Assembly: GCF_006094275.1 (NCBI RefSeq)
Contig: NZ_CP034412.1
Span: forward strand, 2,604,001 to 2,668,000
Direction: 5' to 3'
DNA length: 64,000 nucleotides
Origin: Glutamicibacter creatinolyticus
Lineage (GTDB): Bacteria > Actinomycetota > Actinomycetes > Actinomycetales > Micrococcaceae
Shown here: piece after piece, positions 6,267-14,739 of the stretch
How the letters are laid out: every line of letters starts with the position of its first letter
How positions within the stretch are numbered: the first letter of the stretch is position 1
Position numbers and translations under genes: made by a program
Notes under the pieces: generated by a model
Seen by the model: the letters and a program-made list of their open reading frames with translations, nothing else
What the model was told of the DNA's origin: nothing
Database searches by the model: none

Positions 6267-7643
6267 CTACATCCCGCCGAAGTTTTGCACCACGCTCATG
6301 GCGACGCTGAAGTACACGACCAGCCCGGCCGCGTCGACGAACGTGGAGATGAACGGGTTGGAGAACACCGCCGGATCCACCCGCAGCAGCTTGCCGATGA
6401 TCGGCATGATCCCGCCCACGGCCGCGGCGATCGTGCACAACGCCACCAGGGTGATGCCGATGATCACCGCCACCTGCAGGTCAAAGACCAGGCTGGCGAT
6501 CAGCAGCGCCAGCGAGCCCAGGCACAACCCCAGGATCCCGCCCACGCGCACCTCGCGCAGCAGCACCCGGCCCAGGTCCGCCACCCGGATGTCCCCAACC
6601 GCCAGGGCGCGGGTCACGGTGGTGGCCGCCTGGTTGCCGGTGTTCCCGCCGATGCCCACGACCAGCGGGATGAACAGGCTGAGCACCACCATGGACTCCA
6701 GGGTCTCCTCGAAGCTGGAGAGCACCTGCACGGTCAGGGTCGCGCCGATGCCCAGCACCAGCAGCCACACCAGCCGGGACTTGACCAGTGAGCGGATCGG
6801 GGTGGTCAGGTAGGGGCGGCGCAGCGGTTCGGTGCCGGCTCCGCGCGCCGAACGCTCCTCTTCCTCCAGGTCGATCAGCCGGATGGCATCGTCGATGGTC
6901 AGCACCCCCACGACCCGTTCCTCCAGGTCGAGCACGGGCATGACCATCACCCGGGTGTCGATGGTGCGCCGCGCAGCGACCGCCACCGGTTCGTTCGCGG
7001 TGGCGGTGTAGGGCTCGCTGGCCAGTTCGCCGACCAGCTGCTCATCATCCGCCCCCATCAGTTCACGCAGGCTGACCACCCCGACCAGGCGCCGCGCGCC
7101 GTCGGTGATCAGCACGGTGTAGATGCTTTCCACATCGTCCATGACCCGGTGGATGCGCCGCATCGTCTGGGCGACGCTGAGACCGGGGTGGGTGGTGACG
7201 AAGTTCGGGCTCATCACGTGGCCCACCACCCCGGAGGAGTAGCCCAGCAGCACATTGGTTTCACGCCGTTCACGCTCCCCCAGGCCCTGCAGCAGTTTGG
7301 CGGCGACCTGGGCGGGAAGCTCATCCAGCAGCGCCACCCGGTCATCGGGGTCCATCGCGGCAAAGACCTCGGTGACCGGGTGGCCCTGCATGGCCTCGAG
7401 CAGTTCGGCCTGCACGGGGGCGTCGAGCATCTCGAAGACGTCCATGGCCCGGTCCTTGTGCAGCATCCGGTAGGCGATCGCCGAGTCCTTCAGCGGCAGG
7501 CTTTCCAGGTGCTCAAGCACCTCGGGGACCTCCAGGGCGTCCAGCACCCGGGACAGTTCGGCCATGTCGCGCTCGTCAATGGCGCGACGGATCATACGGG
7601 AAGTAGTTGAGAAATCTACCTTGTCGGTGGTGTTCACTGGCAT
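6267..7643 (-). CDS. mgtE: Magnesium transporter MgtE
   Basis: The protein of about 458 residues has the full MgtE layout: an N-terminal helical MgtE_N domain (about 30-130), paired CBS domains (about 135-255) that sense cytosolic Mg(II), and a C-terminal five-helix pore. The pore carries the conserved stretch PLVVGIGGNTGNQ. It is a Mg(II)-gated channel/importer of the inner membrane. The start is ATG 7643 or GTG 7655; neither has a strong Shine-Dalgarno, in contrast to the leader ORF upstream. Weak initiation of mgtE behind a structured leader fits control at the leader. Confidence 0.93.
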   Translation of the reverse strand: MPVNTTDKVDFSTTSRMIRRAIDERDMAELSRVLDALEVPEVLEHLESLPLKDSAIAYRMLHKDRAMDVFEMLDAPVQAELLEAMQGHPVTEVFAAMDPDDRVALLDELPAQVAAKLLQGLGERERRETNVLLGYSSGVVGHVMSPNFVTTHPGLSVAQTMRRIHRVMDDVESIYTVLITDGARRLVGVVSLRELMGADDEQLVGELASEPYTATANEPVAVAARRTIDTRVMVMPVLDLEERVVGVLTIDDAIRLIDLEEEERSARGAGTEPLRRPYLTTPIRSLVKSRLVWLLVLGIGATLTVQVLSSFEETLESMVVLSLFIPLVVGIGGNTGNQAATTVTRALAVGDIRVADLGRVLLREVRVGGILGLCLGSLALLIASLVFDLQVAVIIGITLVALCTIAAAVGGIMPIIGKLLRVDPAVFSNPFISTFVDAAGLVVYFSVAMSVVQNFGGM

Positions 7644-7990
7644 CAGTCCAAACACGGTTCAGGGGCGCGCCGAGACCCGCCCTTCCGCAGATTTCCGCGG
7701 ACTTTTGCAGGAAGCCCGGAACGAAGCCCGCTTCTTGGATGCGGGGATAAATCTACTGGTCAGGCAGCTGGCGCGCTGGCGAATGGGGTCATGGTCGCGA
7801 GACCCCCGTGCATGACTGAGTACTTCCGGGCTAGCGGGCCAGGAACAAAGAGGGAACGGAGGTTCGCGTGGTGGTAGATCGACTCGGTCCGTCTTCCATG
7901 CGGTTCACCTCCTGGATTGGTCGGGGATCGGCACCCCGGAACGTATCCTTATCTCTTAGTTCTATCACCGAACGGTTGCTTTCCCGAATC
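7644..7990 (-). promoter_or_regulatory. Long structured 5' leader of mgtE
   Basis: About 340 bases upstream of mgtE contain no ordinary gene on the same strand but several elements. There is a GGGG..CCCC hairpin just before the leader ORF's Shine-Dalgarno. A GGGGTC/GACCCC stem (7785-7806) follows the ORF. A CCGC..GCGG stem lies near 7680-7700. A distant pair, GGCGCGC (7770-7776) with GGCGCGCC (7664-7671), could fold across the region ahead of the mgtE start. I do not see the conserved M-box core. Farther upstream (7991-8155) I see only a GGCATCG/CGATGCC hairpin at 8053-8068. Confidence 0.5.
7831..7899 (-). CDS. 22-residue leader peptide upstream of mgtE (candidate Mg-responsive)
   Basis: ATG 7899 follows an almost ideal Shine-Dalgarno, AGGAGGTGA (7905-7913), and opens a 22-codon ORF ending in TAG at 7831. 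The product starts MEDGPSRSTTTR and ends SLFLAR. Its length, the acidic residues and proline just after the start, and its basic C-terminus recall enterobacterial MgtL (starting MEPDPTPLP, ending in basic residues). In MgtL, early Asp/Glu/Pro codons destabilise the ribosome at low Mg and relieve attenuation of mgtA. No homology is claimed; the parallel is positional and compositional. Confidence 0.5.
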   Translation of the reverse strand: MEDGPSRSTTTRTSVPSLFLAR

Positions 7991-8155
7991 GGTGCCGCGA
8001 ATCTCACAGCCCGTGACGCCCCGGCAGGGCCGCATTCGGTGGAACGCTGCCAGGCATCGAACGATGCCGGGTGAGCGCTTTAAAGGTGTGTCCCCACTAA
8101 TGACGGCGCGGTCAAGGGGTGTTTCTCCAGTCCCGGGGCTCACCGCGTTAAATGG

Positions 8156-8187
8156 CAACGGGTGGCGGAGCATTCCGCCACCCGTTG
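8156..8187 (-). terminator. Hairpin terminator of the gcv-sdaA operon
   Basis: A perfect 14-bp stem (CAACGGGTGGCGGA and its complement, loop GCAT) lies about 50 bp past the sdaA stop. There is no long U-run, so it may act as an L-shaped actinobacterial terminator. Confidence 0.6.
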
Positions 8188-8238
8188 GGTGTCCGCGGCC
8201 GCCGACGGTGCTGCCCGCCGCGGCTCAGGCGTCGGCGA

Positions 8239-9648
8239 TCAGCATTCGACGACGTTGACGGCCAGGCCGCCCATCGCGGTTTCCTTGTACTTGTCGCTCA
8301 TGTCCTTGCCGGTTTCGCGCATCGTGATGATCACTTCGTCCAGCGTCACGTGATGCTGCCCGTCGCCCATCAGGGCCATCTTCGCGGCGTTCACCGCCTT
8401 GGAGGCGGCGATCGCGTTGCGTTCGATGCACGGTATCTGCACCAGTCCCCCGATCGGGTCGCAGGTCAGACCAAGGTTGTGTTCCATGGCGATCTCCGCG
8501 GCGTTCTCCACCTGGGCGGGGGTGCCGCCCAGCACCTCCGCCAGGCCGCCTGCGGCCATGGAGGAAGCCGAACCGACCTCACCCTGGCAGCCGACCTCTG
8601 CCCCGGAGATGGAGGCCTGCTCCTTGTAGAGCACGCCGATGGCCCCGGCGGTGAGCAGGAACTTGACCACGGCCTCGTGCTTTTCCTCCTCGTTCCAGAA
8701 CTTGGCGCCCGGAGCGTAATGGGTGGCGTAGAACAGGACGGCTGGGATGATGCCGGCGGCCCCGTTGGTCGGGGCGGTGACCACCCGGCCACCGGAGGCG
8801 TTTTCCTCGTTGACGGCCAGCGCCACGAGGTTGATCCACTCCTGCCAGTAGACCGGGTCGCGGTCCTTGTCCTCCTTGCGCAGCCGGGCATGCCATTCCG
8901 GCGCGCGGCGGCGGACGTTCAGCCCACCGGGCAGCACCCCGGTGCGTTCCAGCGCCGAGTCCTTGCACTGTTCCATGACGTTGTAGATGTGCACCAGCCC
9001 GGAGTAGATTTCCTCCCGGGTGCGCCAGGTTTCCTCGTTGGCGAGCATGATCTGGGCGATCGACTTGCCGGTCTCGGCGCAGTAGTCCAGCAGCTGCGCG
9101 GCGGTGGTGAACGGGTAGGGCTGGGCCTTGACCTTTTCCTCGAGGTTTTTCTCGATCCGTTCCTCGGCGCCGTCCTTGACGATGAACCCGCCGCCCACCG
9201 AGTAGAAGGTCTCCTCCAGCAGCGTTTCACCGCTGGCGTCCAGCGCCGCGAACTTCACGCCGTTGGTGTGCCGGGGCAGGATGGTCAGCGGGTGTTGGAT
9301 CATGTCGGGCACCGAGTAGGCGATGTCCTTGCGGGAGCCGAGCTGCTCGGCCAGGCGCAGCGGTGCGCCGGATTCGATGTCGGCCAGGCGCTCATCGACC
9401 TGTGCGGGCAGGATGCTTTCCGGCTCGTAGCCCTCCAGCCCCAGCAGGATGGCGGTGAAGGTGCCGTGTCCCCGCCCGGTGGCAGCCAGCGAACCGTAGA
9501 CATCAACCCGCACGGTTTCCAGCTGCTCCAGGTATCCCTTGTTCACGACATGGGAGATGAAGGCATGGGCCGCGCGCATCGGGCCCACGGTGTGGCTGGA
9601 TGAGGGGCCGATACCCACAGAAAACAAATCAAAGACGCTGATTGCCAT
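8239..9648 (-). CDS. sdaA: L-serine ammonia-lyase (serine dehydratase), iron-sulfur type
   Basis: This cytosolic enzyme converts L-serine to pyruvate and ammonia using a [4Fe-4S] cluster. The 469-residue protein is the single-chain form with fused beta and alpha domains. The N-terminus has [20 protein letters not shown], the serine-binding SSSHT motif. The alpha domain carries GCQGEVG and [12 protein letters not shown] cysteine motifs plus [13 protein letters not shown]. The start MAISVFDLF is standard for the family. It is the last gene of the glycine/serine unit, separated from gcvH by a glyA remnant and hairpins, so it may have both read-through and its own promoter. Confidence 0.95.
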
Positions 9649-10025: not shown

Positions 10026-10406
10026 TTACTCGACGCTCCCGCCGTTGGCGCTGGCGTAGTCGGCGGCCGAGAGCAGCGGGCCTTCCTCGCTGACCTCGAC
10101 GGTGAACAGCCAGCCGTTGCCGTACGGGTCCTCGTTCAGGATGGCTGGGTTGTCCACGGCCTCCGAGTTGACCTCGACGATGGTGCCGGTGACCGGGGAG
10201 TACAGGTCGGAGACCGACTTGGTCGACTCGACCTCGCCGCAGGTCTCACCGGCGGTGACGGAGTCGCCGACCTCCGGCAGGTCCACGTACACCACGTCGC
10301 CCAGCGCATCGGCTGCGACCTGGGTGATGCCGACCTTGGCCGGGCTGGAATCGTCAATCCACTCGTGCTCGGCCGAGTAGCGCAGGCTTGAAAGAACTTT
10401 ACTCAT
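10026..10406 (-). CDS. gcvH: Glycine cleavage system H protein
   Basis: This 126-residue lipoyl carrier shuttles the aminomethyl intermediate between GcvP, GcvT and the lipoamide dehydrogenase. The lipoylation motif [15 protein letters not shown] places lipoyl-lysine at Lys63. ATG 10406 has a GAGAGGA Shine-Dalgarno; the frame extends upstream to 10568 but that extension is not GcvH-like. It lies 58 bp behind gcvT, and its stop touches the start of the glyA remnant. Confidence 0.96.
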
Positions 10407-10464
10407 GATGGTTCCTCTCCGAAGGGAATCAATGGGCGCTGTGCGACGCCCGTCGGTATCAACG

Positions 10465-11589
10465 TTACTTGGCGCGGGTGTAGAACGGCAGTTCGACAAC
10501 TTCAAATGGCAAAGTCTTACCGCGCAGCTCCACTTCGAGCTGCGTCCCGACTTCACTGTGCGCAACATCCACGTAACCCAGGGCCACCGGGTAGCCCAGG
10601 GTTGGCGAGGGCAGGCCGGAAGTGATCTCGCCGATGACTTCCCCGTCCTTCAGGATCGGGTAGCCGGCGCGCCCGGCCCGCTTGCCCAGGCCCTTCAGGC
10701 CCACCAGCTTGCGGGCGGTGCCGTTGGCGCGCACCTCTTCCAGGGCCTGGCGGCCGATGAAGTTCTCCTCCTTCTTGAAGGAGACCACCGGGCCCAGGTT
10801 CGCCTCGAACGGGTTGCGTTCGGTGGACAGCTCGTTGCCGTACAGAGGCATGCCGGCCTCCAGGCGCAGCGAGTCGCGGGCGGCCAGCCCGCAGGGCACC
10901 AGCTCGTGGTCCTTGCCGATCTGCACGATCTGCTCCCACAGGCCTTCGGCGTCCTCGTTCGCGATGATCAGCTCGAAGCCGTCCTCACCGGTGTACCCGG
11001 TACGGGCCAGGATGGTGTCCACCCCGCCCAGGGCCAGGCGGGCGGCGGAGTAGTACTTCATCTCCTCCACGGCGCTTGCGCCGGCCTCGTCGGCGGCCAG
11101 CGCCTTGACGATGGCCTGCGCGTTCGGGCCCTGCACGGCGATCAGCGAGGTTTCGGCGGTGACGTCCTGGACGGTGGCGTCAAAGCCCTTGGCGCGTTCG
11201 GCCAGTTCGCGGGCGACCAGTGCGGCGTTGCCGGCGTTCGGCACGACCAGGAACTTCTCCTCCTCCAGGCGGTAGACGATCAGGTCATCGAGGATTCCGC
11301 CGGCCTCGTTGAGGATCAGCGAGTACTTCGCCTTGCCCAGCTTCACCACCCCGAGGTTCCCGGCCAGGGCCGTGTTCAGCGCGGTGGCGGCCTGCGGGCC
11401 GCTGACCCACACCTCGCCCATGTGGGAGAGGTCGAACAGGCCGGCGGTGGAGCGCACCGCCTTGTGCTCGGCCAGTTCCGAACCGTAGCGCAGCGGCATG
11501 TCCCAGCCGCCGAAGTCGGTGAAGTTCGCGCCGAGCTGCTCGTGCTTGGCGTGCAGCACGGTGTGCTTGATGTCAGTCACGGTAGTCAT
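10465..11589 (-). CDS. gcvT: Aminomethyltransferase, glycine cleavage T protein
   Basis: GcvT transfers the methylene group from aminomethylated GcvH to tetrahydrofolate and releases ammonia. The 374-residue length is standard. Visible family marks are [24 protein letters not shown] near the N-terminus (folate site), [27 protein letters not shown] and the C-terminal barrel with [13 protein letters not shown]. The ATG lies 3 bases after the gcvP stop, so translation is probably coupled. Confidence 0.96.
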
Positions 11590-14499: not shown

Positions 14500-14695
14500 C
14501 CATCCCTGTTGTCATACCTGAGAGTTTTACGTAGCCGGCAAACGGATGCGACTACTTGCACCTTCGGTGAACCGGTCAAACCGGCTGCTTTCCAGAGTTG
14601 CCTCTTGATGGCGGTACGGTGGCCTGAGAGTTTCCCGGGGAGGAATTGCTCCTTCGGCGCCCTTCCGTGGCGTGGGAGGGTCTCTCCCGCCATCC
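14500..14695 (-). ncRNA. Tandem glycine riboswitch
   Basis: Two gcvT-type aptamers lie in series in the gcvP leader. The first contains GGGAGAGACC, GCGCCGAAGGAGCAA and GAAACTCTCAGG. The second contains CTCTGGAAAGCAGCC, CACCGAAGGTGCAAG and AAAACTCTCAGGTA, then ACAGGGATGGGGA. These are the conserved joining and ligand-binding segments of the family. Glycine binding normally turns the downstream cleavage operon on. The expression platform lies between about 14500 and the gcvP start; no strong terminator stem is visible there, so control could be translational. Confidence 0.93.
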
Positions 14696-14739
14696 GTCAG
14701 CGGCGTGGATCCCGGGGCCAGCCCCGGAACTCCTCGTTA

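Follow-up and report, generated by a model that had tools for sequence, protein, structure and literature searches.

A short upstream open reading frame (uORF) precedes the magnesium transporter gene mgtE of Glutamicibacter creatinolyticus and very probably regulates it as a conserved, cis-acting element through alternative RNA pairing. Sequence comparison supports the uORF, its acidic start, the co-varying pairings of an internal RNA strand (A), the linkage to mgtE in the Micrococcaceae and the presence of an M-box riboswitch upstream of it in three sister genera. The uORF probably helps to tune magnesium uptake. The analysed stretch of DNA, henceforth referred to as the window, covers 64,000 nt of a 3.31 Mb genome and contains the following features, given in the order of transcription:

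7958 to 7967, minus strand: possible −10 promoter element TGATAGAACT, proposed from the TGATAG/TGATAT kept in leaders of the genus
7922 to 7938, minus strand: small hairpin CGGGG..CCCCG ahead of the Shine-Dalgarno (SD), predicted in the window; a hairpin there is also predicted in sub-alignments of relatives
7913 to 7905, minus strand: SD of the uORF, AGGAGGTGA, strand 1 of the switch, able to pair with strand A (from the sequence, folds and swap test)
7899 to 7831, minus strand: uORF of 22 residues, MEDGPSRSTTTRTSVPSLFLAR, plus stop, read from the sequence and kept in relatives
7875 to 7898, minus strand: start-codon hairpin, TGGA.GAC / GTC.GATCTA, from predicted folds, its register in the window being uncertain
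7858 to 7869, minus strand: core of strand A, ACGCGAACCTCC, inside the uORF, pairing with the SD region or with strand B (duplex, fold and swap tests)
7795 to 7807, minus strand: core of strand B, GGGGGTCTCGCGA, giving A its best duplex in the window and matching GAGTTCGYG of relatives
6267 to 7643, minus strand: mgtE, magnesium transporter of 458 residues (TIGR00400)

The mgtE product scored 337 bits against TIGR00400 (cut-off 233), and its start was placed at ATG 7643, with an alternative GTG possible at 7655. The initial annotation had described a tiny SD-driven ORF ahead of mgtE, about 175 nt of leader after it, an mgtE start nearly devoid of an SD and no M-box core. The ORF was confirmed at 7831–7899 with a near-perfect SD, the 3' end of AGGAGGTGA lying 5 nt and the GGAGG core 8 nt from the uORF ATG. 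The leader is present, but 187 nt separate the uORF stop from the mgtE ATG. The window mgtE is preceded by a very weak SD, TTTGGACTG, and an mgtE SD is absent across the genus; many leaders of the genera g18, g23, g24 and g32, however, carry GGAGGG or a similar motif, so that this part of the description applies to the genus of the window. No Rfam match, M-box included, was found at window 7600–8100 even with E values up to 5, in agreement with the annotation, and the Rfam model search found no M-box in the entire genome.

A simple scan of the minus strand from 7500 to 8300 called no intrinsic terminator and no sigma-70 promoter. All 17 leaders of the genus carry TGATAG or TGATAT 60–75 nt 5' of the start of the uORF, which suggests that transcription starts upstream of the uORF, although the sigma-70-type scan called no promoter there.

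Conservation of the uORF and of its acidic start

Conservation was assessed at the level of genus, family and order. The genus sample comprised 18 genomes, 17 of which contain an mgtE orthologue (E ≤ 1e-100), and an SD-led uORF of 17–22 codons occupies the same place in all 17. The remaining genome (G013) gave neither an mgtE match at this threshold nor a uORF match. Conservation among close relatives, on which the initial annotation had made its proposal depend, was therefore found. A family search model built on sequence only, from the SD plus 15 codons, gave a single match in the own genome (window 7914–7860, E 5.5e-13). Among 390 Micrococcaceae genomes, 74 were matched at E up to 0.01. Strong matches (E ≤ 4.8e-6) were obtained in 66 genomes of seven genera (g1, g4, g18, g22, g23, g24 and g32), and all 66 lie 131–366 nt 5' of an mgtE match on the same strand. 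Among the eight genomes with weaker matches, one (G215, L129) has a uORF preceding mgtE, six are without mgtE, and in the last (G240, L131) mgtE is present at 43% while the scan found no uORF.

Leaders from 30 of 41 family genomes with mgtE were taken as loci and read individually. By reading, the uORF was also recognised in g21 (L040) and Nesterenkonia (L009); it was absent at the mgtE loci of g6, g8 and g13 and at one of g22 (L043, L049, L046, L050–L052, L053). At the order level (396 genomes), strong matches were confined to seven genomes, all Micrococcaceae. Weak matches in 21 others (L089–L109; E 5e-4 to 0.0095, 17–21 bits), with no mgtE in the fetched stretch, were rejected as noise, and L130 and L132–L137 were treated likewise. 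A DNA pattern with a five-base spacer matched two of 395 genomes; its negatives were disregarded because most members have a different spacer.

Three further observations concern these loci. The genome of the window (G000) holds a second MgtE-like gene (contig 1, 188728–189972; L002), 43% identical, that has no uORF leader. In G017 (contig 3, 4966–5004; L128), a weaker second copy of the uORF start, MDGEPSRSICRQGPRP (25 bits), lies about 750 nt 5' of the mgtE uORF and precedes an unrelated-looking open frame. A tRNA gene is found close 5' of the mgtE leader at seven g32 loci (L031, L035, L038, L074, L111, L113 and L125).

Codons were counted in 64 of 68 Micrococcaceae uORF loci, representing 62 distinct uORFs, with L118, L121, L124 and L127, which resemble retained loci, and Nesterenkonia L009 left out. 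Codon 2 is acidic in all 62 and codon 3 in 57. By comparison, among 42 SD-led open frames of at least 120 codons in the window, an uncurated set, codon 2 is acidic in three and both codons in none. Acidic codons are kept in g18, g21, g22 and Nesterenkonia even though the pairing partner has changed or been lost there. Only a single early acidic codon is present in five distinct uORFs, which come from six Glutamicibacter genomes, and this counts against the preferred explanation set out below.

In 47 distinct 12-codon starts, Ser6 was observed in 45, and both AGT and TCT encode it within g18. Codons 6–8 are nearly fixed as AGT, CGA and TCT (41, 42 and 35 of 47). Codon 7, which encodes Arg in the window, is Pro in two of 47, and Nesterenkonia L009 reads MDESSSP. 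Pro5 was present in only 17 of 47, and an EPDP-like alternation of acidic residues and proline is not conserved. Of the early acidic and proline codons emphasised in the initial annotation, the acidic ones were retained across the Micrococcaceae uORFs counted and the proline was not. The basic end of the peptide that it had pointed out is likewise not conserved.

Beyond about codon 8 the peptide drifts, with lengths of 17–38 codons and use of all three stops. In alignments, frame-shifting indels of one or two bases (L125, L126, L021, L025 and L026) preserve the pairing, and in this part, as judged from these alignments, conservation is stronger in the RNA than in the peptide. RNA pairing can account for much of the uORF conservation. 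A small protein acting in trans on MgtE, as proposed for the mycobacterial rv1805A in the part of PMC12810186 drawn on here, would fit the conserved N-terminus; the C-terminus, however, varies in length, in sequence and, in five genomes, in frame, and on account of these indels and this variability a free small protein is judged extremely unlikely.

The near-fixed codons 6–8 also bear on the nature of the signal. If AGT, CGA and TCT were kept as rare codons, the uORF could sense translation stress or the charging of Ser or Arg tRNAs. There is, however, no run of a single amino acid, and codons 7–8 change in g18, g21, g22 and Nesterenkonia. The start-codon hairpin can explain the fixed codons, and near-fixation of GTCGATCTA would follow from it. 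The downstream gene, moreover, codes for a channel for Mg2+, and elsewhere the uORF stands behind M-boxes. A signal of this kind is considered very unlikely.

Alternative pairing of strand A

Strand A corresponds to uORF codons 8–16, and block B lies about 105–165 nt 5' of mgtE. The pairing of A with the SD takes the form GGTGAGCT:AGCTCACC in six genus members. In the window, the centroid fold contains GGAGGT:ACCTCC, and in the minimum-energy fold AGGAGG is paired with the adjacent CCTCTT. In many leaders A forms its best duplex with B; exceptions include L017, L019, L023, L081 and L122. The A:B duplex of the window was computed at −22.1 kcal/mol with a z of only −0.7 relative to shuffles, which counts against the preferred explanation, and the whole window leader folds at a z of −1.7. 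Tests of co-variation and partner swapping were added because many GC-rich leaders, that of the window among them, give weak A:B z-scores when taken singly.

Co-variation of A with B was evaluated on 37 distinct g23, g24 and g32 rows, using a sequence-only alignment and a pairing scheme taken from one row. Paired cells amounted to 79.9%, compared with 27–48% when the strands were slid by one to three columns. Double-sided cells numbered 22 versus 7.8 (sd 2.2) in shuffles, with none of 1000 shuffles reaching as many, and eight pairs changed on both sides versus 4.4 in shuffles (7 of 1000). The number of pair types was unremarkable (131 of 1000 shuffles), and slid versions also gave 5–19 double-sided cells in 3–8 pairs.

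Partner swapping was carried out on 76 distinct leaders in four groups with 5000 permutations each, kinship among the leaders making the resulting figures approximate. Native SD:A pairs outperformed swapped homologues in all four groups, with 25, 48, 116 and 6 of 5000 permutations as good. For A and the downstream leader, two groups showed a clear effect (119 and 0 of 5000) and the other two a weak one (406 and 292 of 5000). A control pairing the SD with the downstream leader showed no effect in the four groups (3122, 2129, 4893 and 4627 of 5000). Taken across these comparisons, both pairings of A, with the SD and with B, show co-variation.

The same folds could in principle respond to Mg2+ directly, forming a small riboswitch outside Rfam with the uORF as its expression platform. 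Of 58 leaders scanned, 55 keep the structure without an M-box, and M-boxes occur nearby in sister genera, both of which would be in keeping with this. The elements, however, look like simple helices with no conserved unpaired core besides the uORF start, and that start is conserved at the peptide level, including the AGT/TCT exchange at Ser6 in g18. Direct sensing by the RNA is accordingly regarded as unlikely.

Relation to M-box leaders and to known leader peptides

The Micrococcaceae leaders were searched for M-boxes (RF00380) with cmscan, which covered 58 of 64 leaders (L014, L019, L120, L122, L123 and L126 were left out, and several loci had only about 300 nt upstream). An M-box of 129–135 bits was found in three of the 58, namely L036 (g4), L037 (g18) and L040 (g21), directly 5' of the same uORF, with 71–94 nt from aptamer to uORF start. 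None was found in the other 55, the window included. Within g18, uORF leaders occur both with an M-box (L037) and without (L041, L042). A tie between the uORF and Mg2+ is given by the M-box that stands ahead of it in three sister genera; together with the position of all 66 strong matches 5' of mgtE, this bears out the magnesium connection drawn by the initial annotation, and Mg2+ is considered the likely signal.

In a class-level sample of 197 genomes, 18 M-boxes were detected in nine mycobacteria-like and other actinobacterial genomes. Sixteen are followed by a strong SD and a uORF 60–127 nt further on, for example MSPGDSPYPKSVL, MSSSDSPDRSPGG, MSPGHSPRLSWAG and MSSGGSPQPFHPV; for the other two (L180 and L184) the scan found no uORF start. 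Codon 6 is AGT in 15 of these 16 uORFs; here too, the start region pairs with the interior of the uORF. Their acidic residue usually sits at codon 5, and an early one is missing from f35 and f36, which counts against the preferred explanation. In an order-level sample of 218 genomes, six M-boxes were found, all in a single other family of the order, two with a uORF and four without one before the main ORF. The two uORFs (L164 and L169) start MDGDYSSSS and MDDVPHHSN.

A codon profile made from 15 distinct class uORFs placed 26 of 43 distinct Micrococcaceae-type starts above the 95th percentile of a background of 1278 other SD-led starts, with 14 exceeding the 99th; the 43 starts, which include L009, are mutually related and not independent, and the lowest scorers, L009 among them, score poorly. 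These results are suggestive, though not proof, of homology between the Micrococcaceae uORF and the class M-box uORFs. Because similar uORFs stand behind M-boxes, the window uORF is probably not an independent counterpart of MgtL, and the independent solution proposed in the initial annotation is disfavoured. The window uORF is probably an M-box-linked leader uORF of the rv1805A/uORF2 kind that stands without the riboswitch; with no M-box upstream in the window, it was filed as a likely relative of this kind and not as a member.

As described in the part of PMC12810186 consulted, uORF2/rv1805A lies behind the M-boxes of pe20 and rv1535, is translated, is masked by an anti-SD and is associated with Rho termination; its N-terminus and Pro7 are conserved, and the peptide is termed specific for mycobacteria. 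Judged by position, size and Pro7, the class M-box uORFs would be identical with this uORF2. The Micrococcaceae leaders resemble those of pe20 and rv1535 in the strong SD, similar short length, conserved N-terminus, Mg2+-linked gene and anti-SD pairing and, in three genera, in the M-box 5' of the same kind of uORF. They differ from rv1805A, so far as that part of the source goes, in the lack of an M-box (window and 55 of 58 leaders), in the gene controlled (mgtE), in acidic codons 2–3 and in the rarity of Pro7. The strand pairing with the SD lies inside the uORF here and has a second partner downstream, whereas the mycobacterial anti-SD lies upstream. Should the Micrococcaceae uORF indeed be related to the mycobacterial uORF2, the latter would belong to a wider actinobacterial family, with a role likely in cis and not as a free peptide.

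Leader peptides of enterobacterial Mg2+ transporter genes provide the closest functional parallels, and by analogy the nearest tested mechanism is that of Salmonella mgtQ. In the sections of PMC8092293 used here, Asp2 and Glu5 of mgtQ destabilise the ribosome, the Pro codon is dispensable and stems overlapping the uORF decide expression. The window uORF shares with mgtQ a strong AGGAGG SD, an acidic codon 2, alternative stems over the uORF and a Mg2+ transporter gene downstream. The two have no sequence relation, and mgtQ, as presented there, has eight codons, lies between mgtC and mgtB, precedes a P-type ATPase gene and has a clearly masked mgtB ribosome site. MgtL of mgtA likewise has early acidic residues in a leader peptide 5' of a Mg2+ importer gene. 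According to the portion of PMC11282234 drawn upon, drop-off occurs at EPDP at low Mg2+, acidic residues and prolines are both essential and a Rho-dependent terminator follows, whereas proline is not conserved here; the source adds that di-acidic residues alone are insufficient, which counts against the preferred explanation. A general destabilisation of the ribosome by N-terminal acidic residues is described in the part of PMC9718836 consulted. Hallmarks of mgtL- and mgtQ-type leaders found in the Micrococcaceae are a strong SD with a short ORF 5' of a Mg2+ transporter gene, conserved early acidic codons and, from comparative and computed evidence, alternative stems overlapping the uORF. The mgtE motif of Thioalkalivibrio is also a candidate regulatory RNA 5' of mgtE; in the excerpt of PMC11109978 considered, it is a riboswitch candidate without a uORF and is reported in Thioalkalivibrio only. 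No description of this leader in Micrococcaceae was found in the literature searched, a body outside which most subscription journals fall.

Candidate mechanisms from leader to mgtE

The preferred explanation is a cis-acting leader uORF that works as a translation-coupled RNA switch, with Mg2+ as the signal and early ribosome drop-off as the readout; the explanation as a whole is given an even chance, and drop-off as the readout, which rests on analogy with mgtL and mgtQ, is put slightly lower. The ribosome-binding site and start codon of the uORF can form a hairpin that strand A closes, and A can alternatively pair with B further downstream in the leader. An initiating ribosome would cover the binding site and free A, so that A:B could form, and a ribosome elongating beyond codon 8 would disrupt A:B. 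At low Mg2+, ribosomes would abort or pause on reaching the early acidic codons, in the manner of mgtL and mgtQ, leaving A free to pair with B and raising mgtE expression. At normal Mg2+, ribosomes would traverse A and mgtE would stay low. The output step may be Rho termination or translation of mgtE.

Computed folds hardly support masking of the mgtE ribosome site as the output, which counts against the preferred explanation. With A masked, the accessibility of this site shifted only a little, from 0.45 to 0.42 (21 of 36 leaders in the predicted direction) and, in a second set, from 0.45 to 0.37 (12 of 17). A partner of B near mgtE exists, but without one homologous position. A C-rich, G-poor stretch (C over G) lies 5' of mgtE in 38 of 38 g23, g24 and g32 leaders, which would suit Rho; with seven of 17 Glutamicibacter leaders, it is unremarkable in the genus of the window.

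In the main rival, regulation would act on uORF translation itself, and the acidic codons would be incidental. An SD closed by A, or by an M-box, would leave the uORF untranslated and allow Rho to stop transcription before mgtE, whereas an open SD would admit ribosomes that protect the RNA and keep Rho off the leader. This fits the mycobacterial M-box leaders, which mask the uORF2 SD and terminate by Rho according to the part of PMC12810186 consulted, as well as the co-variation of SD:A in all four swap-test groups, the C-rich stretch in the 38 leaders and the lack of an intrinsic terminator call on the minus strand. The low count of that stretch in Glutamicibacter speaks against it; it also accounts for neither the acidic codons nor strand B and still needs a Mg2+ sensor where the M-box is missing. 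Control through uORF translation by itself is considered rather improbable, although less so than the other rivals.

Under the preferred explanation, one kind of uORF brings together two routes of Mg2+ control that have until now been described separately, namely M-box riboswitches and leader peptides that destabilise the ribosome. It is conceivable, though doubtful, that a uORF once behind an M-box took over Mg2+ sensing itself, the acidic codons and the three-strand switch replacing the aptamer in most uORF-carrying Micrococcaceae. If so, the sister genera retain both a tandem stage and one with the ribosome alone, from a process in which a riboswitch passed its task to the ribosome. The forms with and without a riboswitch, in sister genera and within g18, constitute a natural comparison for the question whether a few acidic codons, read by a ribosome, can take the place of a metal aptamer.

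Elsewhere in the window, a glycine riboswitch aptamer (RF00504, 72.6 bits) was identified at 14602–14699 on the minus strand. The ORFs at 10465–11589 and 10026–10568 presumably resemble the glycine-cleavage proteins GcvT and GcvH.
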